Shown: piece by piece, positions 9,746 through 57,584 of the stretch | Numbering within the stretch: position 1 is the stretch's first letter | Layout: each line of letters opens with the position of its first letter | Source of the DNA: Halodesulfurarchaeum sp. HSR-GB | Lineage (GTDB): Archaea; Halobacteriota; Halobacteria; Halobacteriales; Halobacteriaceae | Reading direction: 5' to 3' | Length of the DNA: 64,000 bases | Assembly: GCF_031432215.1 (NCBI RefSeq) | Contig: NZ_JAVKGN010000001.1 | Location: 310,001 to 374,000, forward strand | Program-made: the position numbers and the translations under genes | Notes under the pieces: generated by a model | What the model was told of the DNA's origin: nothing | Seen by the model: the letters and a program-made list of their open reading frames with translations, nothing else | Databases searched by the model: none

Positions 9746-9750
9746 TGATT

Positions 9751-9800
9751 GGAGGCCACCTAATTCAGCGAGGGGGTCCCGCCGTTTACGGCGGGTGTAG
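9751..9800 (+). mobile_element. Possible relic of an IS200/IS605-type element end
   Basis: A perfect 7-bp stem, CCCGCCG/CGGCGGG with loop TTTA (9778-9795), follows GAGGGGGT. Similar CCCGCCGTTTACGGCGGG hairpins occur at the ends of haloarchaeal IS605-family elements, where the end also belongs to the TnpB guide RNA. No tnpA or tnpB remains in this window, so it could equally be a stand-alone terminator hairpin. From 9800 to 9981 I see nothing else. Confidence 0.3.
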
Positions 9801-9981
9801 GTGATTGCGAAAGTTCCCGATGGGGGTTTGGCAAGAAGAAAAGCGTCAGGGGGAGAGGGGTTGGCGGTGCAAGCGGGTGGGGGGATTCACGCCCCAGTCG
9901 GGACATCGCGCGTGTTCGTAATCAACCCCGTTTCGCAGTTTCAGGACGTGAAACTCGTCCCACCAGGCAACCCGGAAGAAT

Positions 9982-29594: not shown

Positions 29595-30617
29595 ATGTCT
29601 CACGTACTCGGTCGGACGGCGCAGGCCGGACCCACCGTCGAACTGGGTTCGTTTCTCGCCCGGGACGGGAGCGAGGGTGCGTCGGTCGCGCTCGACCTCG
29701 ACCGGCCCCACGTCTCGCTGTTCGCTGGCAAGCGCGGTTCGGGCAAATCCTACACCCTCGGCGTGCTCGCGGAGGGACTCGCCGCCGCACGGGGCGTCAC
29801 CGGCGTCGTGATCGATCCGATGGGCGTCTTCTCGGGGTTGAAAGCAGGTGGCGAGGCGACGGTCGTCCCCGCCCCGACCGTCGCTGCGGACGCCCTCGAA
29901 CCCCGGGACTGGTGTGAGCTTCTGGATCTCGATCCCGCCAGTCAAGCGGGGGCGCTCCTCTGGCAGGTCGCCGAATCGGCCCAGACCCTCGAGGGAATGC
30001 AACGGGCCGTCACAGAGGCCGACGCCCCGCGCGCGGCCATCCGTGCGGTGGCAAATCATCTTACTCTCGCCGACGAGTGGGCGGTCTTCAACCCCGACGG
30101 CCTCGACGCCGAGCGATTGCTGGAGCCGGCGGTGACGGTCCTCGACACATCGAAACTCACCGACCAGGCGCTGTCGGTCGTGACCGCAGCGGTAGCGCGG
30201 ACCCTCTACGAGACGGCCGTCTCGGAGTCGATCCCCCGCCTCCCCTGGTTGTTGATCGACGAGGCACAATCGGTCCTCGACGGCATCGCCGAGGGGCCGC
30301 TCCGGACGATCCTGACCCGGGGCCGTCATCCGGGTGTGAGCCTCGCGCTGGCGACACAGCGGCCGGCGGCCCTCCCGCCGGTCGCCATCTCTCAGGCCGA
30401 TTTGATCTGCTCCCACCGGTTGACCGCGACCGCGGACATCGACGCGCTCGCGACTGCACGACCGACCTATCTTGGAGAATCGATTCAGGATCGACTGCCC
30501 GACGGCGTGGGCGAGGCCGTGGTAATCGACGACACGACCGAGTCAGCAGTGACGGTGCAGATTCGAGAGCGACACACACCACATGGCGGGGATTCGCCGC
30601 GGGCTAAAGATGCTTGA
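29595..30617 (+). CDS. HerA/FtsK-like P-loop ATPase
   Basis: 340 residues. Walker A GKRGSGKSYT at 45-54, Walker B LPWLLIDEAQSVL near 216-228, sensor-like LALATQRPAALPP. This is the HerA/VirB4-type ATPase core (RGSGKS, then HPGVSLALATQRP), without the HAS barrel. No NurA nuclease is adjacent, so a DNA end-processing role is not implied. It may move DNA or protein. Its 3' end marks the switch from GC-rich to AT-rich sequence. Confidence 0.83.
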   Translation: MSHVLGRTAQAGPTVELGSFLARDGSEGASVALDLDRPHVSLFAGKRGSGKSYTLGVLAEGLAAARGVTGVVIDPMGVFSGLKAGGEATVVPAPTVAADALEPRDWCELLDLDPASQAGALLWQVAESAQTLEGMQRAVTEADAPRAAIRAVANHLTLADEWAVFNPDGLDAERLLEPAVTVLDTSKLTDQALSVVTAAVARTLYETAVSESIPRLPWLLIDEAQSVLDGIAEGPLRTILTRGRHPGVSLALATQRPAALPPVAISQADLICSHRLTATADIDALATARPTYLGESIQDRLPDGVGEAVVIDDTTESAVTVQIRERHTPHGGDSPRAKDA

Positions 30618-30808
30618 TCATCAATTTCCTGATGAAAAATTAGAACAAGCAATAAATAGCTCAGACATCAGCTGAAATCTATTGTTATATTTCCAGTAGT
30701 TAGAGACAAAGAAGCTAATTCTTAATTGATTGTGAAATTTGAAACCACCATGAAGCGCCAAAGTAACTGTATTAACATCAAATCATTAATAGTTATTATT
30801 TTTATTCA
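30618..30808. other. AT-rich intergenic stretch
   Basis: About 190 bp of very low GC with no gene; it contains TATA-like runs (for example TTAATAGTTATTATTTTTATTC just before the next start) that probably include the promoter of the surface-protein gene. The low GC continues into the first half of that gene. Confidence 0.6.
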
Positions 30809-33800
30809 ATGACTGGGGAAGAAGATACAACTAGGCAAAAAACAGTTTTGTTGGTTATTGGTATAATACTCACATCACAAATCTTGGTTCCAATAGCGGC
30901 TGGAAGCTCTATGATCACTACAAATAACGATTCACCAAGTGATGTTTCCGTATCTGCAGGAGCTACAATTGAGACAGGGGATTTTACAATTAAAAGTGAA
31001 GACGAAATCATCAAAAAGGGGAATATAGTACCCAATATGACAGATAAAAGTAGGCCGATATATCCAAAGGATGCTCAAACAGAAAATTTCTACATAGAAA
31101 ACCGATCAGAAGGCAATAATCAATTCAATTCAGAGGATTATCCAACTCGAATAAAGATACTTACGGATAACTCAACCGAGGATATACAAAACAAACACAT
31201 CCAAAAGTTTGGTTCAAGCAGTATAGCAATCGATAATAATCTGAATAGGAAGTTGGACAGTGATGAGCCTGTATTTTATGACGCAGACAAGAATTATTTT
31301 CTCACTAATGAAGATCATATCTCCAAGCCAGGATCAGCACCGTTGGAAGCATTAAATAAAACGGATGCGACCTACTTCGACCCATCATCCGGAAATCGGA
31401 ATTACACAAAAGGAAAAGCAATTGTTTCAGTAAATGAACAAGGTCAGATCGCAACAGGGCCGCTAAACGAAGGTGAAACTACAGTACAACTTCCAGGACA
31501 GGTGGCCCTATCTGACTTTGGAGGAGAAACTTATGACGAATATGGGTTTTCAAGTTCTGAAACAACAGATCTTCTCAATAATGACACACCTATACTAAAG
31601 ACAAACACAACCGATCAGGTGTTGATAGGGGCTCTAGACAAGGGCGGAACCACACTACAAAAGGAAGGTCCTCTCAATCTTAGCAATTTTGATGCGAATG
31701 AATCGTTTCATTTAGATAGAATAGACCAATCCGCGGATCAACTCAATAGCCAAGAAGCGATAATTAAGGACTCTAGCGAAGGTGAAATTGGCCAGATTGA
31801 TGAGCTGGATGAGGTAGTGAAAGCGGGTAAAGGAGCCGTTCACCCAATTGAGTCAGGCATCTCAACATACAAAACAGGCAATCTGTATATTGGCAACTCA
31901 AACGGCAACAGTGTACTTGAAAGCGGGGAATTTCTATATATTGAGTCAGGAGCGAAAGACGGCTATCAACCAAAGGACGATCTAGTGCTTTCGAATACAA
32001 GTGAAGCAGATGTTACAGTAGAATATGCCGATTCCAGCACCTACAACAGGTTAGATGGTACTGAAGAAACAAATATCTACTTCTTAGATTTGAACGAAAA
32101 TGGAGAGTTAGATGTTAAGGATCAAACACCAGCAGGGTCTGAACCAATACTAAAAACACAAATTGGGCAGGTTGACAAAGGACAGAATATATCAATTGAC
32201 GATGAATTCTTAAAAGCTGCCCCGAAGAATGGAGCCGCATCAACTATTGAAGGCAAGTGGTATAGTAATGGCATTTATCAAGATCTGAATGATTCTGAGG
32301 GACCATACGTTGGGGGAACTCTCAAATTTGTAGGATCATCCAAAGAGGGCCAATACGAGAGAGGATCAATAATTATTGAGAAGACTAGTGAACAAGGATT
32401 GATTAAGAAATCTGATTTTATAATTGTAGGCGGAGACACTTACCAAAACTCGCTGGAGGAGATACCACTTAAGTACAAATTCATTGACCAAAATGGGACT
32501 GGCGAATTTTATAATGATCCCATTATTAACAAGAAATCTGACGTGGAAGGTGTATTAACGAGGGATGACACAGTGGTTGCGAGAGGAAGCTTAAGTAGTA
32601 CATACGAATTCCAAAGTTCATTAGAATATGTTGATCAGGACGGAAGTGGAACGTACTCCAAAAATGAAGCGGTGATAGATTCGCTAAATCCAGGGGATGA
32701 TAAGTTAGAGCCAGGAGATAAAATACTCAACACAGAAAATAATCCTGCTGAGTTGTATGTTGTGAACTTAAATACATATTCCTCAGATTCGATTTCAAAT
32801 ATGCGAGTTTACCTATCTGAAAATGAATCAGATAGTGGTTATGATAAAAATGAGCCAATTGTAAGTATTAATTCCGTAATTGGATGGAACGAGTCCAAAT
32901 CAATCGACTCTAGGCCCTTGCAAACATTTTCAAGGGAGATAGGATATATTGATTCCAACAACGATAGCATACTTGATCCCAATGATTCGATCTATCGCGA
33001 ACACGACCAAGACATTGCCGGCACCAACACCTACGGCGACCACCTCCAGACAATTACTGTCGAAAACACTGGCTCACTCGACCCAACTTACATCGACCAA
33101 ATCACACTCCAAACCGACGGCACGGAAGTTGCCGCTGCGAGCAGCCCAACCGCGAACGAGACCTGGGTGCTCCAGCCGACAGGAGGTGAGGCCACGATCG
33201 ACCCGAGCGGGACGACCGTCACCCTTCAGACCACCCTCGGCGAGGATGCACCAGGTGGTGAAACCGTCTCGTTGCGGGTTCCCGAGCCCGTGGATGCCGA
33301 CGGCGACGGTGCCTATGACCCGGGCGACGCCGGGTTGTTCTTCGAGCAGGACGTGCCGACGGGTGGGTTCGGCCCAGGGCCAACCCTGACTGTCGAATCC
33401 GAATCTGACTCGAGTAGCGAACCGACGACCACCGGCCCCTCACCGATCGCCCTTTCTGTCACCCCGCCAGCGTCGAATCTCTCGGCGAACGCCACAGCAC
33501 TCCCAGTCGAAGTGAGCGGGAACGCCACCGACCGATCAGTGCAGGCGACACTCCAGTACGCCGCGAACAACTCCACGGTAGCAAGCCAGACCGGCTCGCT
33601 GGACAGAAACGGCGAGACCGAGTTCAACTTCGATCCCACACCGGGACGCTACCGGGTCCGGGTCGAGGCCCTGGAATCCGACGGCGTGGCTCGCTCTGCG
33701 GTAATCGTCGTTGAGGAGCCACCCAGTGCAACGCTCGAAGCGCTCGACCACGCCATCACGCGAGGTGAACGAGTCCCAGTCAATCTGACGCTGGAACGCT

Positions 33801-35281
33801 CGGACACGGCCACGATCAGTCTGCGAGGACCGGACGGCGGTCGATTGGAACGGGCGACAGTCACGATGTCGAATACGACGGCCAAGTTTGCGGTCGACTC
33901 GGACGGCACGGGAGCCGAAAACCGAACAGCCGCCGTCGCTCTCGAATCAACTGACACGAGTCGGGCGGGACTGACCTGGCTGACGACGGTGGCGGACAAC
34001 GAAACAGCGACCAATCGATCGACAACCGACGAATCAGGACCCGGCAACGCAAGCGGCAGCCCACCAGCCCACGCAGCGTCGGAAGCCGGAAAGGGCACCC
34101 AAACAGAACCGCTCGAAGCCGGGAACTACACGATTTCGGTGGCGACTGGCGGCACAATCCAGGACAGAGACACCATTCAGGTCGGCGCGAACTGGACGGC
34201 AGCCATCGAACCGATGGTCGCGCCACGAGGAGCCACGATCGCGTCCGCCGAGGACATCGCGAATAACGCGAGCCGACGGGAGAAAATCGCCAGCGGTGAC
34301 CGACTCGTGATCGCCGTCGAGACCGCCGGACTCGGTTCTTACGCCCGGAACATCACCACCGGTCGCGCAGTCGGGCACGCGAGCCAAAACCAATCCCCAG
34401 GTCGTAGCGGTGGCCCGACCGGCCGTAACAAAAGCACCACGACGAAAGCGAACGGAACGCCACCAGCCTTCGTCTCAGTTGGTCCGAAGTCACCAGGAAC
34501 ACGGAGCGAGCAGCCGATGACCGGGCTCCGTCGTGTGGAGGCCCCGAATTCGGACCGCTTTTTCGTAGTCGCGGATCCGAACGCCAGTGGACGTGTGAAC
34601 CCAGGGAAAGCCCTCGAGACGGCCGTCGTCCTCACCGAGAACACACCGTTCGTCCCCGATCGAACAAACAAAACGGAACAGGAGCGACGGCGGGCCGCAG
34701 TTGAAGTGGTCGAGGCCCGGGCCGAGCTCGCTCAGGCCACCGCAAACGACACGCTCGATCTCCCGACGAACGCAACCGTTCCGATCAATGGCTCGACGAC
34801 AGTGGCACCGGGCACGACCGCAACGGTGCACATCGAAGGCACCGAGCGCAACTTCTCGATCGAGACGGAGACGACCGTCGGCGAGAACGGCACCTACGAA
34901 ACGACCGCGAACCTGAGCGAATACGATTCGGGCACGAACTACACCGTAACCGTCACGGCAAACGACGAACAGATCAGTGAGGTTCACACGGGGCAGTTCA
35001 CCGGGACCGAATCCGCGAGCTTGGCGGCCACAGGCGGGGGCGGTGGCGGGGCAAGCGCCGAGGAGTCCCGACCACGCTCGACGCCGGCTGCGACGACCAC
35101 CGCACCGACCGACTCGGTCACCAGCCCCCTTTCGGACCTGCCCGGTGAGCCCGTCGATCGGGTCGTCGAGGCAGTTCCGGAGCCACTTCGGATCGGGCAG
35201 TCGGGGTTGTTGATCCTCGCGTTTGGAACCCTCGCGCTGCTCACGATCGGCGTCGGGCTCAAGCGGCTGATCCGGCCCTAG
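30809..35281 (+). CDS. Giant mosaic surface protein with EF-hand-like loops and C-terminal anchor
   Basis: 1490 residues. N-terminal signal segment (KTVLLVIGIILTSQILVPIAAG, 11-32). Residues 33-730, in AT-rich DNA, carry repeated calcium-loop-like motifs: FLDLNENGELDVKD, FIDQNGTGEFYND, YVDQDGSGTYSKNE and YIDSNNDSILDPND, plus an internal duplication (about 208-265 against 269-325). Residues 730-1490, in GC-rich DNA, have beta-rich segments and a region near 1125-1260 like haloarchaeal S-layer-type DUF7827 domains. A glycine/Thr-rich stalk and one helix (LLILAFGTLALLTIGVGL) with a basic tail anchor it. There is no PGF motif although archaeosortase A follows. Confidence 0.8.
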   Translation: MTGEEDTTRQKTVLLVIGIILTSQILVPIAAGSSMITTNNDSPSDVSVSAGATIETGDFTIKSEDEIIKKGNIVPNMTDKSRPIYPKDAQTENFYIENRSEGNNQFNSEDYPTRIKILTDNSTEDIQNKHIQKFGSSSIAIDNNLNRKLDSDEPVFYDADKNYFLTNEDHISKPGSAPLEALNKTDATYFDPSSGNRNYTKGKAIVSVNEQGQIATGPLNEGETTVQLPGQVALSDFGGETYDEYGFSSSETTDLLNNDTPILKTNTTDQVLIGALDKGGTTLQKEGPLNLSNFDANESFHLDRIDQSADQLNSQEAIIKDSSEGEIGQIDELDEVVKAGKGAVHPIESGISTYKTGNLYIGNSNGNSVLESGEFLYIESGAKDGYQPKDDLVLSNTSEADVTVEYADSSTYNRLDGTEETNIYFLDLNENGELDVKDQTPAGSEPILKTQIGQVDKGQNISIDDEFLKAAPKNGAASTIEGKWYSNGIYQDLNDSEGPYVGGTLKFVGSSKEGQYERGSIIIEKTSEQGLIKKSDFIIVGGDTYQNSLEEIPLKYKFIDQNGTGEFYNDPIINKKSDVEGVLTRDDTVVARGSLSSTYEFQSSLEYVDQDGSGTYSKNEAVIDSLNPGDDKLEPGDKILNTENNPAELYVVNLNTYSSDSISNMRVYLSENESDSGYDKNEPIVSINSVIGWNESKSIDSRPLQTFSREIGYIDSNNDSILDPNDSIYREHDQDIAGTNTYGDHLQTITVENTGSLDPTYIDQITLQTDGTEVAAASSPTANETWVLQPTGGEATIDPSGTTVTLQTTLGEDAPGGETVSLRVPEPVDADGDGAYDPGDAGLFFEQDVPTGGFGPGPTLTVESESDSSSEPTTTGPSPIALSVTPPASNLSANATALPVEVSGNATDRSVQATLQYAANNSTVASQTGSLDRNGETEFNFDPTPGRYRVRVEALESDGVARSAVIVVEEPPSATLEALDHAITRGERVPVNLTLERSDTATISLRGPDGGRLERATVTMSNTTAKFAVDSDGTGAENRTAAVALESTDTSRAGLTWLTTVADNETATNRSTTDESGPGNASGSPPAHAASEAGKGTQTEPLEAGNYTISVATGGTIQDRDTIQVGANWTAAIEPMVAPRGATIASAEDIANNASRREKIASGDRLVIAVETAGLGSYARNITTGRAVGHASQNQSPGRSGGPTGRNKSTTTKANGTPPAFVSVGPKSPGTRSEQPMTGLRRVEAPNSDRFFVVADPNASGRVNPGKALETAVVLTENTPFVPDRTNKTEQERRRAAVEVVEARAELAQATANDTLDLPTNATVPINGSTTVAPGTTATVHIEGTERNFSIETETTVGENGTYETTANLSEYDSGTNYTVTVTANDEQISEVHTGQFTGTESASLAATGGGGGGASAEESRPRSTPAATTTAPTDSVTSPLSDLPGEPVDRVVEAVPEPLRIGQSGLLILAFGTLALLTIGVGLKRLIRP

Positions 35282-35330: not shown

Positions 35331-36215
35331 ATGATCGGGGCCACGGATCTAGCCACAGTCACGGACCCACTCGCGTGGATCGTGGTCCTCACCTTCGCCA
35401 CGAGCGCGATCCTGTCCATGCGGGAGTCGCCCGCCGCCCGCTACGGGGCGACCGGGGCCTGGGCACTCTTTGCGGTGTTCTGGGCGCTAATGGTCCCGCA
35501 CTACGCAATCGAGATGCGGAGCATCGTCGAAGGCGTGCTGAGCGCCGCCGCTGTGCCCGGCTCGCTGTACGTCGCGTACCTGATCTATACCGAACGCCGG
35601 TCCTTCGAAGTGCTGACCCGGGCTGTCGCGATCATGGGCTTCATCTACCTCCCATTCGAGGCGATCACGGTCATCAGAAGCGGATCGATCGAGATGGTCG
35701 TGGCCCACGTGGAGTTCATCCTCCGTGCCGTGGGCGTCGAACCGACGGTCATCACTGGTCCCGACGGACTTCGAAGCACCTTCCTCTTCCTGGCCGAGGA
35801 CGGGCACCGGCTGACGACCCGGGTCATTCTAGCCTGTACCGGCATCGGGAGCATCTCGATCGTGGCCGGCCTGGCCCTTTCCGTGGACGCCTCCCCCCGG
35901 CGCAAACTTCTCGGGATCGCGATGGCGGTGCCGATCATCTACGGGCTCAACGTCCTGCGGGTGGCCTTTATCGCGCTGGCGCACGGCTTCCAGTGGTTCG
36001 CCGGCTTCCAGGACCCGATCTTCCTGGTCTTCGGCATCGAGGACCCCTATCTGGTCTCCTACATCGTGGCCGACAGAGTCATCTCCCAGTCGGCCTCGGT
36101 ACTCGTGCTGATACTCATCACGCTGGGGCTCCTGCGGCTCATCCCCGAACTGTCCACGGTCGTCGAGGACGTCCTCTTCCTACTCACGGGCCGGGAGTAC
36201 GACCTCGACCTGTAG
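35331..36215 (+). CDS. artA: Archaeosortase A
   Basis: 294 residues, about eight membrane helices. The transpeptidase-like active site is complete: Cys169 in LACTGIG, Arg210 in NVLRVAF and Arg249 in VADRVIS; the spacing 41 and 39 equals that of Haloferax ArtA. It cleaves PGF-CTERM proteins and links them to membrane lipid on the outer face. A matching substrate with SPGFGP near its C-terminus is encoded at 22139-23353. It lies 49 bp after the giant surface-protein gene and may share its transcript. Confidence 0.96.
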   Translation: MIGATDLATVTDPLAWIVVLTFATSAILSMRESPAARYGATGAWALFAVFWALMVPHYAIEMRSIVEGVLSAAAVPGSLYVAYLIYTERRSFEVLTRAVAIMGFIYLPFEAITVIRSGSIEMVVAHVEFILRAVGVEPTVITGPDGLRSTFLFLAEDGHRLTTRVILACTGIGSISIVAGLALSVDASPRRKLLGIAMAVPIIYGLNVLRVAFIALAHGFQWFAGFQDPIFLVFGIEDPYLVSYIVADRVISQSASVLVLILITLGLLRLIPELSTVVEDVLFLLTGREYDLDL

Positions 36216-38463: not shown

Positions 38464-39225
38464 CTAGCAGTTCCGTAACCTGGTCCGTTCATGTTCAATC
38501 ATGGCTGTATACCCGTCTACCAGGGACGTGATAATGTGCTCACCCACTTCGGGGGTTGCCACAGTCGGATCACCCAAAACTCCAGCATCCGTTACCGACT
38601 GAAAGCCGAGATTCAGGACCGCAGAACGAGATTTTAGACCCTCATTGCCAGGGCGCAATTCGGAATTACGGACACGTGATGGTTCAATAGCCATCATCAT
38701 CGCGGTTTCAGTACCGCCACCATGGATAACCGGCTCCTGGTATTCCAAACCGGCCTCTTCTAGCCCCTGATTTATTAGTTCTGTAAAACGGTTCAGGTCT
38801 ACAATCGGGATGAGCGAGAGCTCCGAGTATTTTGGGGCCAGTTCGGCAGCTGCGGTTTCAACAGGCGGGAAATTTCCACCGTGAGAGGGGAGCAAGACTG
38901 CGAATTGAAATCCATGGCCATCGAGTGAGTCAAGATAATCGTCTATAAGACCTTTGAGAACGTCGGAACTGATCGAGATCGTGCCCGGATAATCGGTATG
39001 GCTAGGTGAACACCCAACTTGAATCGGAGGGGCCACAAGTGTGTCACCGAGCCGGTTTGCGACCCGAGTCGATATTTCCTCGCCAATCATCGAATCAGTT
39101 CCAACCGGGAGGTGTGGCCCATGTTGTTCTGTCGCTCCAATTGGAATGATTACAGTATGGACTTCTTGGCCCGCGACCTCTTCTATGGAAGTCCAAGCGA
39201 GTTCGTTCATTTTTACAGAACGCAT
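38464..39225 (-). CDS. mftE: Creatininase-family peptidase, probable MftE of mycofactocin synthesis
   Basis: 253 residues from the ATG at 39225, about 27 nt after a TATA-like TTATTA (39248-39256); ATG starts at 39210 and 39249 are also in frame. Creatininase-fold metal ligands are visible in GATEQHGPHLPVGTDSMIGEE (glutamate, histidine, aspartate) and LLPSHGGN. In mycofactocin synthesis MftE cleaves the modified C-terminal Val-Tyr dipeptide from the precursor. Family membership is firm; the MftE role rests on the mftA-B-C-F cluster 3 kb upstream on the same strand. A plain creatininase is the alternative. Confidence 0.75.
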   Translation of the reverse strand: MRSVKMNELAWTSIEEVAGQEVHTVIIPIGATEQHGPHLPVGTDSMIGEEISTRVANRLGDTLVAPPIQVGCSPSHTDYPGTISISSDVLKGLIDDYLDSLDGHGFQFAVLLPSHGGNFPPVETAAAELAPKYSELSLIPIVDLNRFTELINQGLEEAGLEYQEPVIHGGGTETAMMMAIEPSRVRNSELRPGNEGLKSRSAVLNLGFQSVTDAGVLGDPTVATPEVGEHIITSLVDGYTAMIEHERTRLRNC

Positions 39226-39487
39226 GGTAAGCAGTTTTGAGCACAGCATAATAAATTTGAAAGCGATGTACTTGAGAAAAGTTAGATACTAAATAGATCA
39301 CAACAATTACGACCCCTGGAAACTGTTAATGAAGTGGGCACCAATAGCCGGAGTTGTATGTCAACAGTTCAGCGAACACCGTATCGCCGCGTGTCACCCA
39401 CCCTTGTTACCTGGCTATTGGGCCCAGATACACGCCGATCCGATCAGTTAATCGAGTCGTGTTCTTGACGCCCACATTCGCACTAAC

Positions 39488-39497
39488 ACTTATAGTA
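39488..39497 (+). promoter_or_regulatory. TATA box of the EamA-type transporter gene
   Basis: ACTTATAGTA lies 24-33 nt before the ATG at 39521, so the transcript is probably leaderless. The rest of 39226-39487 holds only the divergent mftE promoter. Confidence 0.6.
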
Positions 39498-39520
39498 TTC
39501 CGTGTGGATTTTTCTGTAAC

Positions 39521-39937
39521 ATGGCTACGACGGCAATTTGGCTTGCTGTAGTAACAATGGTGGCATGGGGCGGATGGGCAATTTTTGCAAAGATTTCCAC
39601 AGAAACGATCTCGTCGGACTTGGCAACACTTGTAACATATGCATCGGCGAGTGTTTTTTTGTTAGGAAACTACCTGTACAACTCACAGAACCCAGTCGAT
39701 TTTGATCCGACTGGTGTAACATATGCACTGGGAGCAGGAATAACAAGTGCCATCGGGGCAGTAACCATGTATTCCGCACTGAAAACCGGAGATGCATCGG
39801 TTGTAACTCCGATTAGCGGGTTGTACTTCGTCATCGCAGCCATTCTGGGCGTTCTCATATTTAAAGAGCCCATTGGAATGAAAAAGGCTGCAGGGCTCGT
39901 ATTTGCGGTTATATCTATCACTCTTGTAACTCAGTAG
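39521..39937 (+). CDS. Single-domain EamA/DMT-type transporter
   Basis: 138 residues with four to five helices (ATTAIWLAVVTMVAWGGWAIFAKIS, YALGAGITSAIGAVTMYSALKTGDASVVTPISGLYFVIAAILGVLIFKE, and a final LVFAVISITLVTQ helix). This is half the length of a standard EamA exporter, so it would function as a dimer, like small DMT proteins. It lies between the mftE and BCCT genes on the opposite strand to both. Substrate unknown. Confidence 0.8.
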   Translation: MATTAIWLAVVTMVAWGGWAIFAKISTETISSDLATLVTYASASVFLLGNYLYNSQNPVDFDPTGVTYALGAGITSAIGAVTMYSALKTGDASVVTPISGLYFVIAAILGVLIFKEPIGMKKAAGLVFAVISITLVTQ

Positions 39938-39998
39938 AAACTGGGGGGAGAAATCAAAACTAAGATTGCACTATCTTCAAAATTGGCCCGGGGCGGAT

Positions 39999-41612
39999 TT
40001 AATCGTCGTCCGGTGCGGCCTGGGACTGTTTTTGAGCCGTCTGTGACTCTGATTTGCGGGTGATAAACCTGGAATGCTCTTCCCCGTCTTCCAGCATATT
40101 AGCTTTGAAATAATCTCTGGCAGCAACGTAACTGGAGAATGCTATCGCGACAAGGAAGACGGTGAACGGGAATGCCAAAATCACTGGGAATGCCTGCATT
40201 GCGCTAAACAGGGGGAGTTCAATCGTCATCACACCCACGAACGCGAGCAGAACACCCCACCATGCCCGGTTCCGAGCATTGGGATTTTCGGTCCCAAGGG
40301 TAATCGAAGAGAGGATAAACACAGTCGAATCGAGGGAGGTAATCACATACCCGGTGATCACGAGGACGAACAGAACAGCCAAAACCAACCCATATGGGGT
40401 GAGATTGACTGCTTCGGCAATCGCAGCAGGAATTCCTCCGGAAGAAACGGCCTCAGTTACCGGTTCGACATAACCCGGGGAGAGAACCCATCCGCCAATG
40501 ATCGAGTGCTGAATCCACAGGAAGACTCCGGGAATAGCGACCAAACTCACAAACGTCTCTCGAAGAGTTCGGCCCTTGGAGACCCGGGCGACAAAGCTGC
40601 CAACAAAGATGCCCCACGCTGCCCACCAGGCCCACCAGAAACTGGTCCAATAGTGGCCCCAATCGCCAGCTGCGGTGGGATCCGTGAAGAACGAAAGTCG
40701 GAACATGTTGTTGATCCAGATCCCAGTTGCATCCAGCCCGATATTGATCGCGGACAAGGTTGGGCCCACCACCAACAGGAACCCGGCCGAAATCATCGCC
40801 AGAATCACCGTCGCTCTCGCAGCGTTCTGGATGCCCTTGTGAAGTCCGAGCCAGACGTCTCCGAGGAACACTAACCCAATTAATCCAAATAGTATGTACG
40901 TAAGGGAAGATCCTGGCATATTGAATACATCACTGATGAGCGCATCGAATGTCTGGGCAGAGAACCCCATCGTCGCTGCAATTCCCCCTACAATAGCGAT
41001 TAGGGAGGCCAGGTCCACAACCCAGTAGAGGTACTTGTGGTCCCCGTCTCCGAGGAGCGGTTTGAGCATAGAACTGATTTTGAATCGGTCCACGTTCCGG
41101 TTGTAAATTGTGAGGGCAAATGCGAGAGCGAAGGGAGGGTACCACATCGCTAGCCCGGGGAAGATCTCGTGGATAAACATGAACGAAAGCGACATGGATT
41201 CAAGCGCGCCACTCACTGGCCACGGCTCTGGGGGCGGAGCAGCCATGATCGAAGCAGGCTCCCCAACACCCCAAATGATGATCGAACCACTGTATCCGAC
41301 AGTAAATACCATCGCGATCCATCCAAATAGGCCGAATTCAGGTTCTGCATCCTGACCGCCAATGCGAATTTTTCCGTACTTCGAGAAAGTCATGAACACG
41401 GAAAACGCCAGAAGCGCAAATCCCAGTACCATAAACCACCAGCCGAAGTTATGGAGAACAAAGTCATAGCCCGCCATCATCATGTCATTGAACCACTGCG
41501 GGCTCAAAATTCCAATTGCACCGAGAACAGCGAGTCCAACTGCAGTGAGGAAGAAAAGCATTTTCTCATTGAACTCAGCCCCTTCCAAACCAAAAATCTC
41601 CATTAATTTCAT
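39999..41612 (-). CDS. BCCT family (betaine/choline/carnitine-type) transporter
   Basis: 537 residues, about 12 helices. The family signature lies in GHYWTSFWWAWWAAWGIFVGSFVARVSKGRT (about 317-347), and the aromatic WGVGEP segment near 114 corresponds to the substrate pocket. The C-terminal tail is acidic and glutamine-rich. BCCT proteins bring in quaternary ammonium compounds with Na+ or H+. Lying within the mycofactocin island, it may supply the substrate that the SDRs and aldehyde dehydrogenase oxidise (inference); use of betaine as an osmolyte is an alternative. Confidence 0.9.
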   Translation of the reverse strand: MKLMEIFGLEGAEFNEKMLFFLTAVGLAVLGAIGILSPQWFNDMMMAGYDFVLHNFGWWFMVLGFALLAFSVFMTFSKYGKIRIGGQDAEPEFGLFGWIAMVFTVGYSGSIIIWGVGEPASIMAAPPPEPWPVSGALESMSLSFMFIHEIFPGLAMWYPPFALAFALTIYNRNVDRFKISSMLKPLLGDGDHKYLYWVVDLASLIAIVGGIAATMGFSAQTFDALISDVFNMPGSSLTYILFGLIGLVFLGDVWLGLHKGIQNAARATVILAMISAGFLLVVGPTLSAINIGLDATGIWINNMFRLSFFTDPTAAGDWGHYWTSFWWAWWAAWGIFVGSFVARVSKGRTLRETFVSLVAIPGVFLWIQHSIIGGWVLSPGYVEPVTEAVSSGGIPAAIAEAVNLTPYGLVLAVLFVLVITGYVITSLDSTVFILSSITLGTENPNARNRAWWGVLLAFVGVMTIELPLFSAMQAFPVILAFPFTVFLVAIAFSSYVAARDYFKANMLEDGEEHSRFITRKSESQTAQKQSQAAPDDD

Positions 41613-42041
41613 GCGTGTCGTCGATTGGTTTTGGGTTCCGAGTTAGTTTGCAGATGCCCAGCTACTGCGTTGTCGGTTCGCCTCCTGTGTACCGTTCGCC
41701 TCCAATTTTTGGTTGGTGTATTTGGCATGTTGATTTAACCACAGCACGTGCTCCGCTGAACCATCTTTCGCCGTGGGATTGCCGCGTGGATCATGCGGCC
41801 ACACAGCTGGCTCATAGAGTTCGTGCTCGTTCTGTGTCTTTAGGTGGTCGGTGTGTGATTCGGTTCCATCACACTGCTACACACACCCAGTATACGCGGG
41901 GGAATATAAAAATTGGGTTTAGGCATATAGGGATTGGCAATGGAGCCCTCGTTGCCCCAAAATCGAAACCCCGTTCCGATAATGGTCATCTGGGAGTATT
42001 GTTTCTTGCACGAAGAACTGGCCGAGCGACCGACCTTTCGA
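41613..42041. other. Gap between mftF and the BCCT gene
   Basis: About 430 bp without a supported gene. On the minus strand a TATA-like TTTTTATATTC lies at about 41903-41913, nearly 300 nt before the BCCT start, so a long leader is possible; no known riboswitch pattern is recognised. Otherwise I see nothing. Confidence 0.4.
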
Positions 42042-43547
42042 CTACAGAGTGAGAGAAAACCGACTCGAGGGGCGAAGATGGGCAACAGTACGGTTTTCCA
42101 CCGCACCACGGTAGGCTCCAATCTGGTAGGTAAGATGGTCAACGAGGTACAAGAGGGAGTATCGAACAGGGCTTGAAGGCCGATTAACGGACAGATCTAT
42201 AGCCAGAGCCACCACCACACAGATCCCCGGGATGGCAAGTAAGCTAATGGCAAGAAACTCTAAGCCGCCAACACCTGCTAAAATCCCAAGCGCGACTAAG
42301 GGAAGCGAATAATAGCGCGTAACTTCGAGAGCGAAACCGTAGACTCGTGAAAGTGAGCCACGGAAGAGACCAGCCACAGCCGCAGACACACGAATGGACC
42401 CGGTTATCACTGAAGTGAATGCCTGTTTTGTGGGCGTGATGACGAAACCGAGAACCGTCATAGCTGCCAAAAATGTGCCCAGAGAAGCACCAATATTCAG
42501 CATAGAATTGACCACAGGCAAGACCGCGAGCAATACCAAACCAACCAAGGAGATCGCTGGCAGCGACACCGAGCCGGGGTGGCCGTACAATTTGGCCAAA
42601 AGCGCTTCAGAACCGCCGTAAGAAAGACGTCGTCCGAGAAAATTGGTGACTCCTCCGTAGTCGTGCTCGACAACACCAGTTGGATCGTACACCAGATCAA
42701 ATCCATTCGCCAGTGCGTCCCAGCTAACACCAACGTCCTCGGCGACGTTTCGTTCTGGGAAGGGGGTTTTCTCAAACACCTCTCGGTGGCCGACAAGATT
42801 GGCAGTTGGAAGGTAGGGTGTCGACTGTTCTCGGTCCACTGGGGACGCACGTGGACCCATATCCAAAGAGGAGTGGATCCCTTCATACTCATGCATGGGC
42901 CGTGCTGTATCGGTAGGGCGGACACGTCCACCGACCACATCATGAGTGGCCAGAGCGGGAACAAGATTCGATAGCCACGCCCGATTCGGACGACAGTCTG
43001 CATCCGTGAACGCGATGATCTCGTTCGCCGCACTCGAAACACCCCGGTTTCGGCTCGCACCGATGCCGAGTGGTTCCGTGTCAGATCCAACAGGAACGAG
43101 ACGCAAGTTCCCATCCGCTGTCAGAGAGTGTGATCGGATTAATTCCCGTGTGTCGTCTGTGGAGCCGTCATCAACAACGACGACCTCGTACTCAGGGTAA
43201 TTCAGATCGGCCAAAGCGTCCAAAGCCGGCTCTATTGCGTCTGCTTCGTTTCGTACTGTCAAGATGATCGAGACGGGTGGCTGAAACTCTGGGTCACGTG
43301 CGGGCCTCCACTCGAGAAAGCCGCGATTGTAAAGATCACTGAGTAGTGCTCCAGTCGATTCCGCTGAAACCCCGCCTTCCCTAGCAATCGCCGTTACTGA
43401 CTGAAACTCATCAGTGGAAACCGTCTTGAGGAGATCCTGGGCAGAGTCGTTCAACCGAGTTACAACGAGAGGACCAGACCGAGAAACAAGACCATTCTGA
43501 ATCGAAACACTGTCCCGGAGACGGTACTGGCCACTCGTTCGTGACAT
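42042..43547 (-). CDS. mftF: Mycofactocin glycosyltransferase MftF
   Basis: 501 residues. Residues about 18-85 form a PqqD-like winged-helix domain (LNDSAQDLLKTVSTDEFQ and the GGVSAESTGALLSDLYNRGFLEW end). A GT2 glycosyltransferase follows from 91: SIILTVRNEADAIEPALDAL, VVVVDDGSTDDT (121-132), FTDADCRPN (near 175) and a late EDVGVSWDAL. The C-terminal third has several membrane helices. In mycobacteria MftF adds an oligoglucose tail to the cofactor. It follows mftC after a 6-bp gap, completing an mftABCF operon. Confidence 0.9.
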   Translation of the reverse strand: MSRTSGQYRLRDSVSIQNGLVSRSGPLVVTRLNDSAQDLLKTVSTDEFQSVTAIAREGGVSAESTGALLSDLYNRGFLEWRPARDPEFQPPVSIILTVRNEADAIEPALDALADLNYPEYEVVVVDDGSTDDTRELIRSHSLTADGNLRLVPVGSDTEPLGIGASRNRGVSSAANEIIAFTDADCRPNRAWLSNLVPALATHDVVGGRVRPTDTARPMHEYEGIHSSLDMGPRASPVDREQSTPYLPTANLVGHREVFEKTPFPERNVAEDVGVSWDALANGFDLVYDPTGVVEHDYGGVTNFLGRRLSYGGSEALLAKLYGHPGSVSLPAISLVGLVLLAVLPVVNSMLNIGASLGTFLAAMTVLGFVITPTKQAFTSVITGSIRVSAAVAGLFRGSLSRVYGFALEVTRYYSLPLVALGILAGVGGLEFLAISLLAIPGICVVVALAIDLSVNRPSSPVRYSLLYLVDHLTYQIGAYRGAVENRTVAHLRPSSRFSLTL

Positions 43548-43553
43548 TTTGGG

Positions 43554-44513
43554 TCAGTCACCGTGCAAAATCGAGCGTAGTTGAGGATCCTCTCCTTCTG
43601 AGTCCTTGCTACCCATCGCAACTGCTGGACATCCTTCGTGGTCATCGACGTGGGTCCCAAGAGAGGTAAGTTCGTCCCATGCAGTTTGGAAGCCGTCCGA
43701 AATGACGTTGCCCGATTTTACTTCCGGCCATTGAGTGAACGCACAGGGGTACACATCCCCAACGGGATCGACCAAGCAAGTCATAGACCCGGCTCCACAT
43801 TCTTTCAAAGTCTCGTTTCGAACTTCACCCATTGCGTTCAGGTAAAAGAACGAGTCGCCTGTTCGAACATCAGGGTGATCGCTCAACCAGGAATGCAGGT
43901 ACGTGATCTGATCAGTGTCCAGTCGAAGCCTATCCCAGACATCTTCACCACGTCCGCTGGGGCGGAACCGGTTGAGGCGAAGACCCGCTCCATAACTCCC
44001 CGCTAGCTCGTATATTTCGTCCAAATCGTGGACGTTTTGGCTCGTGACAACCGTATTCACGGTGGTCCCAATATCTCGTTCTGCAAGTTCAGAAAGCGTG
44101 TCTAGAACAGAATTAAAAACACCATCCCCACGTAACGCGTCGTTTTCTGGCTGAAGTCCGTCCAGACTCACCTGCAGGTATAAGGGGTCCATCTCTTCCA
44201 GCCGATCCAAAACGGTCGCGTCCAACTGTGTTCCATTGGTACTCACACAAGTAGAGATTCCCCGATCCGTGAGATCAGCGAGGAGTTCAAGGATGTCCGG
44301 TCTAACAAACGGCTCACCCCCACCAATATTCACCTGGAAGATGTCCATCTCGTCACACTCCGCGATGAATTCCTTTGCCTCGGCAGTAGACAGTTCGTCA
44401 GACGATTGCTGTGCGGGGCCACTCCCGGAGAGGCAATGATCACAGTGCAGATTACAGCCAAACGTGACTTCCCACGTGATCGTGACCGGTGAGCGCAACG
44501 GGCTACGTGACAT
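43554..44513 (-). CDS. mftC: Radical SAM mycofactocin maturase MftC
   Basis: 319 residues. The radical SAM cluster motif is C20-x3-C24-x2-C27 in TFGCNLHCDHC, followed by VNIGGGEPFVRPDI and LYLQVSLDGLQ. The SPASM-like end has cysteines in KECGAGSMTC, VYPCAF and EGCPAVA, fewer than the seven or eight of mycobacterial MftC, which is also longer. MftC decarboxylates the C-terminal Tyr of MftA and forms a Val-Tyr carbon bond. It overlaps mftB by 11 nt and lies directly after the precursor gene, which supports the call. Confidence 0.88.
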   Translation of the reverse strand: MSRSPLRSPVTITWEVTFGCNLHCDHCLSGSGPAQQSSDELSTAEAKEFIAECDEMDIFQVNIGGGEPFVRPDILELLADLTDRGISTCVSTNGTQLDATVLDRLEEMDPLYLQVSLDGLQPENDALRGDGVFNSVLDTLSELAERDIGTTVNTVVTSQNVHDLDEIYELAGSYGAGLRLNRFRPSGRGEDVWDRLRLDTDQITYLHSWLSDHPDVRTGDSFFYLNAMGEVRNETLKECGAGSMTCLVDPVGDVYPCAFTQWPEVKSGNVISDGFQTAWDELTSLGTHVDDHEGCPAVAMGSKDSEGEDPQLRSILHGD

Positions 44514-44748
44514 GTATATACCCCTTTTTTCGAGCGACTTCGATTACCTCAGGAGAAAATTCATCCTGGAGGGCTTCCAGCTCGATAGCTGACCGATCCT
44601 CAACATACTCCAAACACGAAATGATGCGCTCGTCGACTGTGCTCAGCGTCGCATCCTCGTAGCCGTAATTTTCGTGGTCATACACGAGACCATACTCGTC
44701 CTCGCGCCGATATTTGATGTACTCAGGCTTCGATACGGTCTTTCCCAT
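44503..44748 (-). CDS. mftB: Mycofactocin precursor-binding chaperone MftB
   Basis: 81 residues, PqqD/RRE-like: an initial beta hairpin region (KPEYIKYRREDEYGLVYDHEN), then helices STVDERIISCLEYV and SAIELEALQDEF, ending with EVARKKGYIHVT. Its length and position, starting one base after the mftA stop and overlapping mftC, match the MftB that hands the precursor to the radical SAM enzyme. Sequence alone would be a weak call; the context makes it strong. Confidence 0.85.
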   Translation of the reverse strand: MGKTVSKPEYIKYRREDEYGLVYDHENYGYEDATLSTVDERIISCLEYVEDRSAIELEALQDEFSPEVIEVARKKGYIHVT

Positions 44749-44868
44749 TCAATAAACTCCGCAAATCCCGTCAATCCGGAGTTCCTCTTTCACCAGGTCG
44801 CTTTCGATCTCCGGCGGTTCAGTGTCGGCAGTTTTCGAGCTTTCAGTTTGAGGGGCTGCTTTTGACAT
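44749..44868 (-). CDS. mftA: Mycofactocin precursor peptide MftA (39 residues)
   Basis: A short ATG-to-TGA frame encodes 39 residues starting MSKAAPQTE and ending with the core IDGICGVY. The C-terminal Val38-Tyr39 pair is what MftC and MftE convert to the redox cofactor; the actinobacterial core is IDGMCGVY. The leader is acidic and Glu/Thr-rich, as usual for such peptides. The stop touches the mftB start, and a TATA-like box lies about 29 nt before the ATG. The gene is easily missed because of its size. Confidence 0.95.
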   Translation of the reverse strand: MSKAAPQTESSKTADTEPPEIESDLVKEELRIDGICGVY

Positions 44869-44890
44869 CATTTAACGTTAGTCCGGTGCA

Positions 44891-44903
44891 AATACTTATA
44901 ATT
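44891..44903 (-). promoter_or_regulatory. Promoter of the mftABCF operon
   Basis: Read on the minus strand, AATTATAAGTATT is centred about 29 nt before the mftA start codon, so the operon would be transcribed with almost no leader. The same AT-rich core could serve the divergent OYE gene on the plus strand, about 75-85 nt before its start. Confidence 0.65.
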
Positions 44904-44977
44904 TGTCACCAGCGCCCGATCCGGCGAGTAGTAGAATACCCTCAATACTCAAGTTGGTCGGTTCACAATGGCACTGT

Positions 44978-46891
44978 ATGGACCTACAGCAAGAGGTCGA
45001 GATTGTGGGGACACCCATATCCAATCGAGCGGTCTTCCGTGCTGTTCGAACAAATCTGGCCGAAAATGGGCACCCGACCGAGGAGCTAAATGAACATCTG
45101 GCGGCTCGCGCTCGAGGTGGAGTCGGCCTGGTGGTCGGTCCAGCCAAAATGCTGGTCGATTCGTCTGCCAGCGGGCCTTGGTTCGTGGATGCGTATGATA
45201 CGGATGTTGTCCCCGCGCTTGAGAGAACTGCCAGATCGATTCACGAGGCAGGGGGAACGGTTTTCGGGCAACTCACACACCCTGGGGCTGAAGCGACTGG
45301 TGATTGGGAAATGCAAGCACAACTTGCACCCTCTGCAGTGGCCTCAGATTCAACCTACGAGATGCCGACGCCAATGAGCCACGACGATATCGAAAGACTC
45401 CAGCGCTCATTCGGGACCGCGGCGAAAAACCTTTCAAACGCAGGATTTGACGGTGTAGAGCTCGCTGCAGGCCCGTATTCGATTCTCAGACAATTCCTCT
45501 CACCAAAGTTCAACGTTCGCGAGGACGAGTATGGCGGTTCATGGGAAAATCGGGCTCGGTTCGTGAACGAAGTACTCGATACAGTCTCAAAAGCAATCGA
45601 TGAACCTGTCGGACTGCACCTCTCGTTGGCCGAGATGGAATATGGTGGATACGAGTATGAAGACATTCCGGACCTACTCAATGCGATTGACGGATTTGAC
45701 TATCTCTCTGTCACTGTCGGAACCGCCTCGACGTACACACAGGGGCACAGTGGAATTGGAATGGATTCCCCCGGCCTTGAATCTGGCATTGAAACAGTTT
45801 CGGACATCGTCGATGTCCCACTCATCGGCCGATCCCCGCTGACGACTGGAGACTCAACAAGAGATCTTCTCGACGCTGGTGCCGATCTGGTGAGTTTTAC
45901 CAGACAACTTCTTGCGGACGAAAATACGGTTCAAAAGCTCCAGGAGGGAGTTCGGCCAAAGCAGTGTATCAAGTGTAATCAGAAATGCCTTGAGGGAGTG
46001 TTTGCAGACGCTCATGGCGGACACGTGGAATGCGTAATCAATCCCCGAACAGGGAGGGAAGCGGAACTTGACCCGATTCAATCACTCCCGGAAGTCAATT
46101 ACAAACAAAACATTCTGGTGGTTGGTGGGGGGCCTGCTGGAATGCGGTTCGCAACAGTTGCCTCCCAACGCGGACACAATGTTACGCTCCGAGAGAGAAA
46201 GGACAAGCTTGGTGGCCAACTGACGGTCGCTGCACAGGGAATACTCTCACCCATCGAACGTGCATTAGAAGACCTCAAGTCGGACCTCATCGAAACGGAA
46301 GTAGCAGTTGAAACAGGGCAAGAGGTGCGTGCAAAAGACATCTCAAATGAATGGGACGCCATCGTCGTCGCAACTGGCGCGCCGATTTCCACGAAGGAAG
46401 GATACGATTTCGAAGAAAAAGTTGTTGATGCCGTCGATGTTCTTCAGGGCGAAGAGACGGCAGATGAGGTACTACTGATCGACGAGAATCGGTGGATTAT
46501 AACCATGCAAGTCGGCTTGGAACTCGCCCGCCGGGGGACTGATCTGGAAATAGTCACCGAAGACCACTATCCAGGTTTCCGAACCGAACAGCCCAACCTC
46601 CCGACGATGGTTGCCAGCCTCCAAGCACAGGGGGTCGATTTCATCGGGAATCACGAAGTGGATGAGATCACAGACGACGGGACAGTAACGATGCATCACA
46701 TCTATTCCGGCACAACCCAGTCCCGAAAACCGGAGACCATAGTGTATGCGGGACGACGGAGTGCAAATGAATCGCTTTACTTGGAGCTCTCAAATGGCCA
46801 CGACGACGTGTACCGGATCGGAGACGCGGTGTCACCGCGTAAATTAGATCGGGCGTATTACGACGCTGAAGATCTCGCCCGGCGGCTTTAG
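44978..46891 (+). CDS. FadH/OYE-type flavin and Fe-S oxidoreductase (mycofactocin-associated), copy 1
   Basis: 637 residues from the ATG at 44978. An old-yellow-enzyme barrel (about 1-320; HPGAEATGD, GVELAAGPYSILRQFLSPKFNVREDEYGGS) is followed by the 4Fe-4S ligands CIKCNQKC near residue 330 and by two nucleotide-binding domains (VVGGGPAGMRFATVA near 382). This is the layout of 2,4-dienoyl-CoA reductase and trimethylamine dehydrogenase, and of the FadH/OYE proteins found with mycofactocin loci. It is divergent from mftA and would move electrons between cofactor pools. Confidence 0.85.
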   Translation: MDLQQEVEIVGTPISNRAVFRAVRTNLAENGHPTEELNEHLAARARGGVGLVVGPAKMLVDSSASGPWFVDAYDTDVVPALERTARSIHEAGGTVFGQLTHPGAEATGDWEMQAQLAPSAVASDSTYEMPTPMSHDDIERLQRSFGTAAKNLSNAGFDGVELAAGPYSILRQFLSPKFNVREDEYGGSWENRARFVNEVLDTVSKAIDEPVGLHLSLAEMEYGGYEYEDIPDLLNAIDGFDYLSVTVGTASTYTQGHSGIGMDSPGLESGIETVSDIVDVPLIGRSPLTTGDSTRDLLDAGADLVSFTRQLLADENTVQKLQEGVRPKQCIKCNQKCLEGVFADAHGGHVECVINPRTGREAELDPIQSLPEVNYKQNILVVGGGPAGMRFATVASQRGHNVTLRERKDKLGGQLTVAAQGILSPIERALEDLKSDLIETEVAVETGQEVRAKDISNEWDAIVVATGAPISTKEGYDFEEKVVDAVDVLQGEETADEVLLIDENRWIITMQVGLELARRGTDLEIVTEDHYPGFRTEQPNLPTMVASLQAQGVDFIGNHEVDEITDDGTVTMHHIYSGTTQSRKPETIVYAGRRSANESLYLELSNGHDDVYRIGDAVSPRKLDRAYYDAEDLARRL

Positions 46892-46893
46892 AA

Positions 46894-47712
46894 TTACTTT
46901 GCCGTCATTCCTGCATCGATAGGAAGGACAGCACCAGTCACGGCACCGGACGCATCACTCGCAAGCCAGAGATGCGCTTCAGCAACGTCTTGCGGGTCGA
47001 GCAGGTTCCCATCGAGGAGATTCATCGGGCCAACGGGGCCCGAAATTCTATCGAAGGGTTCGGTCCCGAGTGATTCGACCATTTTTTCAACCATTGGCGT
47101 ATCGATTCCGGTCGGACTCACTACATTGGCCCGGATCCCATATTCGCCGAGTTCAAGCGCCAGTGATTTCGTAAATCCGATGATCCCGTGTTTTGACGCC
47201 GAGTAATGGGCAGACCAAGCCGCGCCCACTTGCCCCAAAATCGAGGACGTGATTACGATACTCGCCTGTTTCTCGTGCTGAATTGCTTGTCTGGCGATGT
47301 ATTTAGCCGACAACCAGGCACCTTTCAAGTTAGTATCGATGACCAATTCGAATAGCGCCTCGTCAACGTCAGCAAACGGACGACTGTCCCAGACACCAGC
47401 ATTAGCGGCCAAAAAGTCGATATGACCAAATCGATCAACCCCCGTTTCGACAGCGTCTCGAACGGCTGAAGCATCACGCACGTCAACTGGAATTACGAGT
47501 GCCTCAGAACCAGTATCACGAACCAAATCAGCAGTTCTCTCAAGATCTGCCCTGGTACCAAGATCGTACGGAAGCGTTGAAATCTCCGAGCATATGTCGG
47601 TAACAATCACGTCTGCACCTGCCTCAGCGTACCGTTCTGCGGTCTTCCGACCAACGCCACGAGCGGCCCCCGTCACGAACGCAACCCGGTCATCAAAGTT
47701 ATACTGAGGCAT
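46894..47712 (-). CDS. Mycofactocin-coupled SDR family oxidoreductase, copy 1
   Basis: 272 residues. Rossmann motif TGAARGVGR (14-22), catalytic Ser and YSASK (near 161). After the strand-2 aspartate comes the insertion DICSEISTLPYDLGTRADL, the hallmark of the SDR subgroup that holds NAD permanently and needs mycofactocin for turnover. Substrates are usually alcohols. It converges with OYE copy 1 (stop codons 2 bp apart) and is the last gene of the OYE-etfA-fixC-fixX-etfB run. Confidence 0.9.
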   Translation of the reverse strand: MPQYNFDDRVAFVTGAARGVGRKTAERYAEAGADVIVTDICSEISTLPYDLGTRADLERTADLVRDTGSEALVIPVDVRDASAVRDAVETGVDRFGHIDFLAANAGVWDSRPFADVDEALFELVIDTNLKGAWLSAKYIARQAIQHEKQASIVITSSILGQVGAAWSAHYSASKHGIIGFTKSLALELGEYGIRANVVSPTGIDTPMVEKMVESLGTEPFDRISGPVGPMNLLDGNLLDPQDVAEAHLWLASDASGAVTGAVLPIDAGMTAK

Positions 47713-47722
47713 CGTCGTTCAA

Positions 47723-48586
47723 TTAGAGTACCTCATTGGCCTCAAGGTACGACACTACTTGATCGATTGCGTGCTCCGGCGAGTCGTCGATTATTTCCCC
47801 AGCGGTTTGTTCATCCGAATCTGTATCGCCCATGATCTGGTGGATTCGCTGTTCGACGGACCCGTGCCGTGGTGGTGCCCCATGACCCACACGCTCGTAC
47901 GCGTGGATGTCACGGACACTAAGGGAACCAATACTCATGGAAAAGCGCGATTCCCCGGGCACAATCTCGTCCAGTGGAAGCGTTCGAATGGACGCTCTTT
48001 GGGCAGCGAGTACAGAGTCCATAGATCCACGTGAGGGGTTGGCAAATCCGGAATCGATCCCCAAAACAACGGGAGTATTGAGACCAACTATCTCCTGTTC
48101 ACCCAACGCGACACGTCGTTGAACGAGGAGATCATGGTCGGACTCGTAGTGACCATCAACGTCCTCCGTGCCGATTCCGGTCACGCCCGTTGTTGATCGC
48201 CATCCCAGATCAGCTGCTATGGTTGTGATCACCTCGATATCCATCGTCGGTGCCTCGTCACCGATGAATACTGTTTCGGGCTCCTCCTGCTCAATAACCT
48301 TGGCGAGAACCGCCCCATATTTTTCCCCAATCGGGTCTTCGATGGGATCATACTCAATATGGATGGCTTCATCAGCACCCGCCCGTAGCCCGGCTTTGAC
48401 AGCGTCTTTTGCCCGTTCATCGCCAATCCCGAGAACGGTGACATGCTCCGCATGCTGTTGGGCAGCTTCGAGCGCCACCAGATCTGTCTTGTTGGCTAGC
48501 CAGCGTCGGGTTTGAACACCCTCAGACTCCGTGTCCGGGAGGACCTTGTGCGGAGAGGGGCGGATTGGAACAATTGCGTTCATCAT
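47723..48586 (-). CDS. etfB: Electron transfer flavoprotein beta subunit (FixA/EtfB)
   Basis: 287 residues. EtfB traits: VALEAAQQHAEHVTVLGIGDERAKDAVKAGLRAGADEAIHIEYD (about 37-80) and PETVFIGDEAPTMD. The C-terminus is longer and more acidic than in bacterial EtfB. It binds AMP or a second FAD and pairs with EtfA at 50291. Its start overlaps fixX by 4 nt. Whether the pair bifurcates electrons cannot be decided from these motifs. Confidence 0.88.
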   Translation of the reverse strand: MMNAIVPIRPSPHKVLPDTESEGVQTRRWLANKTDLVALEAAQQHAEHVTVLGIGDERAKDAVKAGLRAGADEAIHIEYDPIEDPIGEKYGAVLAKVIEQEEPETVFIGDEAPTMDIEVITTIAADLGWRSTTGVTGIGTEDVDGHYESDHDLLVQRRVALGEQEIVGLNTPVVLGIDSGFANPSRGSMDSVLAAQRASIRTLPLDEIVPGESRFSMSIGSLSVRDIHAYERVGHGAPPRHGSVEQRIHQIMGDTDSDEQTAGEIIDDSPEHAIDQVVSYLEANEVL

Positions 48587-48873
48587 CCTAGATCGTACTC
48601 CACTCCTTTACCACCATCAGGCTTCGTCCAGGAAACGGCTCCCCGGTCCGGATCGTTGGCACAGAAAACCATGCAGGAGCCGCATTCGATACAGTGCTCG
48701 TACGAGAAGTATATCCCACCCTCCTGCTCTTCCTGGTAGTCAAAGCACTGTGCCGGACAGAGGTGCAGACACGGTTTCTCCTCGCAGTCGACACACTCGG
48801 AGTTATCGACGGTGATGTGTCCCTCTTCTCCTACATCCCATTCGACTGTTTCCAGATCTTTTTCTACAGACAT
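48583..48873 (-). CDS. fixX: Ferredoxin-like FixX
   Basis: 96 residues from the ATG at 48873. Cysteines CVDCEEKPCLHLCP (about 27-40) and CIECGSCMVFC (about 61-71) suit a FixX-type ferredoxin with one 4Fe-4S cluster or more. It accompanies FixC in passing electrons from the flavoprotein to quinone. It overlaps etfB by 4 nt. The 110 bp to fixC upstream hold no gene I can support. Confidence 0.88.
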   Translation of the reverse strand: MSVEKDLETVEWDVGEEGHITVDNSECVDCEEKPCLHLCPAQCFDYQEEQEGGIYFSYEHCIECGSCMVFCANDPDRGAVSWTKPDGGKGVEYDLG

Positions 48874-48983
48874 TGGTGTTCGCCTCCATTGAGCCGGGGG
48901 GTGGTAGTTCCTTTTGTACGCATGTCTATCCGGTGAATAACTCCATCGCCGTTTGTAGTCTGTTGTATGTGGAACATAGTTTG

Positions 48984-53223: not shown

Positions 53224-53473
53224 TTTTCTGGATGGACGCCTGGTTCCCGGCGCCGAGATCCTCGTTTCCGAGTAGAGTACCCCCATTAATGAAATTTCCC
53301 CTGGTCGACCGTCGGCTTGTGCGTCTCACGGATACGCCAGGGCTTTCGCCCAGCCCTGGACAAGAGGATGGGATTGAGGGGTTGTAGAAAGGCTCGTTCA
53401 CCGCAACCAGAGCGGATGAACTCGGAAACCGACGGATGGGTGTTCGGGTGCGTTCGGTCGACTTAGGCAGAAA

Positions 53474-57560: not shown

Positions 57561-57563
57561 TGT

Positions 57564-57584
57564 TATCCAAACTAAGTTTGGATA
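57564..57584. promoter_or_regulatory. Perfect palindromic operator-like site 1
   Basis: TATCCAAACT and AGTTTGGATA are exact inverted arms around one central base. Size and symmetry suit a dimeric IclR-type regulator. Confidence 0.6.

Follow-up and report, generated by a model that had tools for sequence, protein, structure and literature searches.

The question raised by this locus is how one uninterrupted reading frame for a surface protein of a Halodesulfurarchaeum species came to consist of an AT-rich front and a GC-rich rear, and whether the AT-rich part is imported DNA. The window analysed is a 64-kb stretch of the genome (2.25 Mb) of this species (G000); it was compared with one genome each of two further species of the genus (G001, the closest relative compared, and G002) and of two species of the sister genus (G003 and G004).

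The genes of the locus and their parts lie on the forward strand. The surface-protein gene (positions 30809 to 35281) is an open frame of 1,490 codons, continuous as the original prediction had it, and is placed between two conserved flanks: a HerA/DUF87-like ATPase gene upstream (29595 to 30617; Pfam DUF87, E 3e-10), with 95% DNA identity to G001 as far as base 30606, and artA downstream, encoding archaeosortase A (35331 to 36215; TIGR04125, 295.8 bits, cut-off 75). The AT-rich intergenic or promoter region (30618 to 30808), recognized by its GC content and by alignment with G001, had been included in the range given in the prediction, which starts at 30618; the coding sequence begins at 30809. 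A putative N-terminal signal peptide was identified by eye (about residues 1-32; 30809 to 30904). The AT-rich head (residues 60-727; 30986 to 32989; GC3 0.34), delimited by GC3 and assigned to type A by a BLAST match to the head of G003, carries D/N/G-rich repeats of about 40-50 residues of the form YIDsngdGkyd..EPII. The remainder is a GC-rich stalk (residues 728-1490; 32990 to 35278; GC3 0.73), delimited by GC3 and protein identity and conserved within the genus (protein 85% identical to G001, 40% to G002); it includes the domain BGTF halo_surf_dom (NF045517; residues 1314-1392; 34748 to 34984) and ends in a C-terminal hydrophobic anchor with basic tail (GLLILAFGTLALLTIGVGLKRLIRP; 35201 to 35278), recognized by eye and lacking a PGF motif.

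The composition step is sharp at both ends of the AT-rich stretch. GC falls from 0.68 to 0.35-0.43 at about 30610, where the upstream gene has its stop codon, and recovers at about 32990; in 500-bp intervals it is 0.35-0.43 across 30750-32999 and 0.63-0.69 beyond 33000. A binomial change-point analysis of GC3 places the step at codon 726 (about 32987), where GC3 rises from 0.336 to 0.728; the log-likelihood improves by 118, much more than chance would give. The predicted switch from AT-rich to GC-rich is thereby borne out, its placing at about 32995 being slightly off. Of the 34 coding segments of the window for which GC3 was measured, the head ranks lowest (0.343, followed by 0.477), and among all 2-kb stretches the one with the least GC begins at 30601. 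The step is not merely an amino-acid effect, since it is strong at third positions and at four-fold sites (GC4 0.36 in the head vs 0.74 in the stalk); GC1 and GC2 drop in the head too, so that amino-acid use also shifts, and lysine accounts for 6.1% of the head vs 1.2% of the stalk. Because both halves share one reading frame, expression level alone is unlikely to be the cause.

The window is colinear with the genome of G001 at 93.6-94.8% DNA identity, except at 9227-9805 and 30607-32988. The latter segment has no DNA alignment to G001 between flanks of about 94% identity; the alignment ends at 30606 and restarts at 32989, at most 3 bp from the GC3 change point, and at this junction (32987 to 32990) the change point and the end of the replaced segment meet the start of a conserved IYRE motif. 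The segment runs from the upstream stop codon to the IYRE motif and therefore holds the promoter region, the signal peptide and the entire AT-rich head; its borders are by necessity the ends of homology and need not be crossover points. As the heads of G000 and G001 are unalignable at this locus, the outer part has indeed been replaced, with a conserved 3' part and a variable 5' part, as the prediction had anticipated for a comparison with orthologues. Alignment of the two genomes shows the head, with its putative promoter region and signal peptide, to be a sharply bounded replaced segment.

Stalk DNA is 87% identical to that of G001, below its surroundings; the stalk evolves faster in amino acids, yet its synonymous identity (0.77) is inside the range of the neighbouring genes and its four-fold sites are within the range of other genes. 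Since these sites are in range and upstream identity close to the border is at background, there is no sign of a larger imported tract. Beside the surface-protein gene, no gene of at least 100 aa for a recombinase or mobile element was found, and nothing evident was seen on inspection of the border sequence, for which reason homologous recombination via the shared GC-rich flanks is proposed as the process that would move the heads.

Further differences from G001 were noted elsewhere in the window. At 38464-53286, the four-fold sites of sampled genes show 97-100% identity to G001, vs 73-93% in the genes around them, and GC3 of the sampled genes is low (about 0.49-0.63); this looks like a block recently shared by both species. 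At 9036-9805, the 3' end of a tRNA-Phe gene is echoed twice downstream (about 9205-9230 and 9333-9357), and these echoes and the other break in colinearity (9227-9805) resemble old integration scars. A gene at 62262-63386 encodes a hydrophobic segment at the C-terminus and a run of DTDGDGLDD-type repeats, probably calcium-binding; the repeat copies are also out of register in the alignment with G001. Regions 56900-57800 and 60200-60800 are merely 73-76% identical to G001 amid well conserved DNA.

Orthologues were searched for with the C-terminal half of the protein alone, and the collections yielded five orthologous loci, which belong to two genera of one family; an alignment scan of genome contigs gave a match only to a Halodesulfurarchaeum MAG, and a single-sequence scan of genome contigs gave no matches. 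In G001, G003 and G004 the frame is whole at the corresponding locus, and the copy of G002 is cut by a 5' contig end. The slot between the HerA-like gene and artA, with the surface-protein gene in it, is present in the sister genus as well; artA stands immediately 3' of the gene in all five genomes, and all five proteins have a similar C-terminus with a transmembrane segment plus basic tail. The AT-rich front and GC-rich rear are likewise common to all five, at one domain border: the change points in G001-G004 lie at most about 20 codons from an IYRE-like motif. The signal-peptide region of G003 and G004 (their first 59-64 codons) is GC-rich, and the AT-rich part begins afterwards.

These observations bear directly on the explanation that the step arose when this lineage took up foreign DNA in a single recent event. 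It is consistent with the head being the sole large segment unalignable to G001, and is refuted by the sharing of the step among five species; the head of G001, of another type (type B), is as AT-rich as that of G000, and synonymous sites are saturated within types, which leaves this explanation next to no probability. The original prediction had named, as the observation that would speak against it, orthologues in distant species with the same domain order and composition step. The same order and step were found in five orthologues, which goes most of the way towards refuting the reading of the step as foreign DNA, although these orthologues come from two genera within one family instead of from distant species.

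The age of the AT-richness can be judged from the heads of G001 and G002, in which four-fold sites of identical amino acids are 26% identical, with 28% expected from composition (GC4 0.33 and 0.45 in the heads, 0.75 and 0.66 in the stalks, for G001 and G002, respectively). Synonymous sites are thus saturated between these two heads, and base composition therefore had time to equilibrate; an equilibrium at low GC in the heads, while the stalks stay high, means that the step is maintained. Judged by these sites, the low GC of both head types is old and maintained, and no fresh import. Low-GC surface loci are routinely taken as recent imports, and this usual reading fails here: of the proposed replacement of outer domains by foreign DNA, the replacement stands, and the composition step as a trace of foreign origin does not.

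The heads fall into at least two types, the apparent dimorphism resting on a 2:3 split of five loci. Type A comprises the heads of G000 and G003 (29% identity, BLAST E 4e-64), and type B those of G001, G002 and G004 (30-38% identity; E 1e-131 for G001-G002, 7e-70 for G001-G004 and 4e-65 for G002-G004). Between types, BLAST E values are 0.01-0.05 at best, apart from matches near the shared signal-peptide region (G003-G004, 2e-18; G000-G004, 3e-4) and one further weak match between G003 and G004 (E 0.002). The two halves of the gene show conflicting histories, each tree with full support: in the head tree, sequences cluster by type irrespective of genus, (G000,G003)|(G001,G002,G004), at 100/100, and in the stalk tree they cluster by genus, also at 100/100.

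This conflict argues strongly against the view that the head has always been AT-rich for a functional reason and that types A and B are fast-diverging descendants with no exchange between lineages. Such a history would explain why the same step is found everywhere, and is in line with a weak similarity of the types: hhalign aligned A and B heads over 96 columns with a probability of 47%, and an iterated repeat model found YID..GxY..EPII-like D/N/G-rich repeats in both. However, the surroundings of the gene are 94-95% identical between G000 and G001 and their stalk proteins 85% identical, yet their heads are unalignable, and the head of G000 finds its match in the sister-genus genome G003; we regard divergence without exchange as very improbable. 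A repeat model built from type A alone performed no better on type B than on shuffled controls, and we therefore make no claim that the two types share an ancestor. AlphaFold models of the two head types had a mean pLDDT of 27.5 and 30.3 and were useless for fold comparison.

Within types, head and stalk have diverged to a similar extent (head/stalk identity, pair by pair: 38/44, 31/31, 32/32 and 30/34%), as expected if both types predate the split of the two genera. The simplest history would be that both types existed before that split, and that G000 and G001 either gained different types after diverging from each other or received them from an ancestral population that was mixed. The same numbers weigh on a further explanation, namely that heads were imported again and again into one slot from an unseen pool of AT-rich donors (e.g. 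other low-GC halophiles), the low GC reflecting the donors. Low GC, the higher lysine content of the head and the crossing of genera by head types would all suit such imports; a head divergence that tracks the stalk, among the type B genomes as well as between G000 and G003 of type A, is not expected from them. Moreover, head profiles run against 99 genomes across the order found relatives only in members of the two genera, and no head relatives were found in viral contigs or, with the type A head only, in plasmid and phage collections. Donor-pool import is thus considered unlikely.

The neighbourhood of artA raises the relation of this protein to S-layer glycoproteins. In several genomes of the same family, an S-layer-type glycoprotein with PGF-CTERM occupies the slot before artA (examples: G009, G012, G014, G016 and G019), preceded in some of these genomes by the HerA-like gene; other family genomes have different proteins in the slot, and in G024 and G025 artA follows straight after the HerA-like gene. 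The 1,490-aa protein has one canonical haloarchaeal S-layer feature, the BGTF domain NF045517 (51.7 bits, above the cut-off of 40). Of the features of an ArtA substrate, it has the transmembrane segment and basic tail seen by eye; in spite of the adjoining artA, PGF is absent from its C-terminus (VPEPLRIGQSGLLILAFGTLALLTIGVGLKRLIRP), and there is no NCBIfam PGF-CTERM match. By these features it occupies the S-layer slot of other genera, yet is not a canonical S-layer glycoprotein. A separate 975-aa protein of G000 (C1, 1.087 Mb) has PGF-CTERM and a stronger NF045517 match, and has relatives in G001, G003 and G004. Its gene (L011:4741-7665; C1, about 1.0847-1.0877 Mb) is likewise swapped relative to G001, with flanks 94-96% identical, about 2.2 kb in mid-gene unalignable and proteins only about 42% identical; its GC3 of 0.66 is under that of most core genes and far over that of the AT-rich head. 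A quartet tree of the S-layer-type alleles groups by genus, and no co-variation with head types is therefore claimed.

Exchange of surface proteins is already known in haloarchaea, and the present locus is a variation on it in which the low GC is demonstrably old. In Haloferax (PMC5867893), close relatives also have strongly different surface proteins, and recombination inside S-layer genes and two types have been reported; there the whole glycoprotein differs between clades, whereas here only the head does, the protein is non-canonical, the types cross genera and the border is a conserved composition step. The cell-wall genomic island GI1 of Haloquadratum walsbyi is similar in that surface-protein variants persist in the population and are transferred by homologous recombination, and these variants were interpreted as restricting virus infection (PMC4535781); it is a multi-gene island, in contrast to the head/stalk gene with an intragenic GC step described here. 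The VARTIG module of Thermococcales (PMC8416519) also involves a large archaeal protein with one hypervariable end, ascribed to inter-species recombination. It differs in that a C-terminal Ig region and the downstream genes vary, whereas here the variable part is N-terminal, with two discrete types and a constant downstream artA.

Our favoured explanation, which we consider probable, is an ancient two-type head cassette on a GC-rich stalk, in an artA-adjacent slot, exchanged by homologous recombination through shared flanks. By analogy with known haloarchaeal surface variation (PMC4535781, PMC5867893), both types may be kept by frequency-dependent pressure, most likely from receptor-using viruses, or else from cell-cell recognition. 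More speculatively, the head might avoid the GC-biased gene conversion that would keep the remaining genome GC-rich: unalike types presumably cannot pair and recombine inside the head, and the head would for that reason escape a GC-raising process. Recombining genes are reported to be richer in GC in most bacterial groups tested (PMC4450053). We tentatively suggest, as a possibility that we hold with reserve, a trans-genus balanced polymorphism in which two head alleles are older than the genus split and lasting AT-richness is the footprint of absent recombination between types.

For surface variation in these organisms, the locus means that the low GC outlasts synonymous saturation and coincides exactly with the exchanged segment in five species, so that a cause other than recent import must hold. 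The clean head/stalk design makes it testable what separates the types for so long, and why the exchanged segment remains AT-rich. If the proposed polymorphism is true, balancing selection, and not import, would account for the low GC of loci that vary surface proteins.
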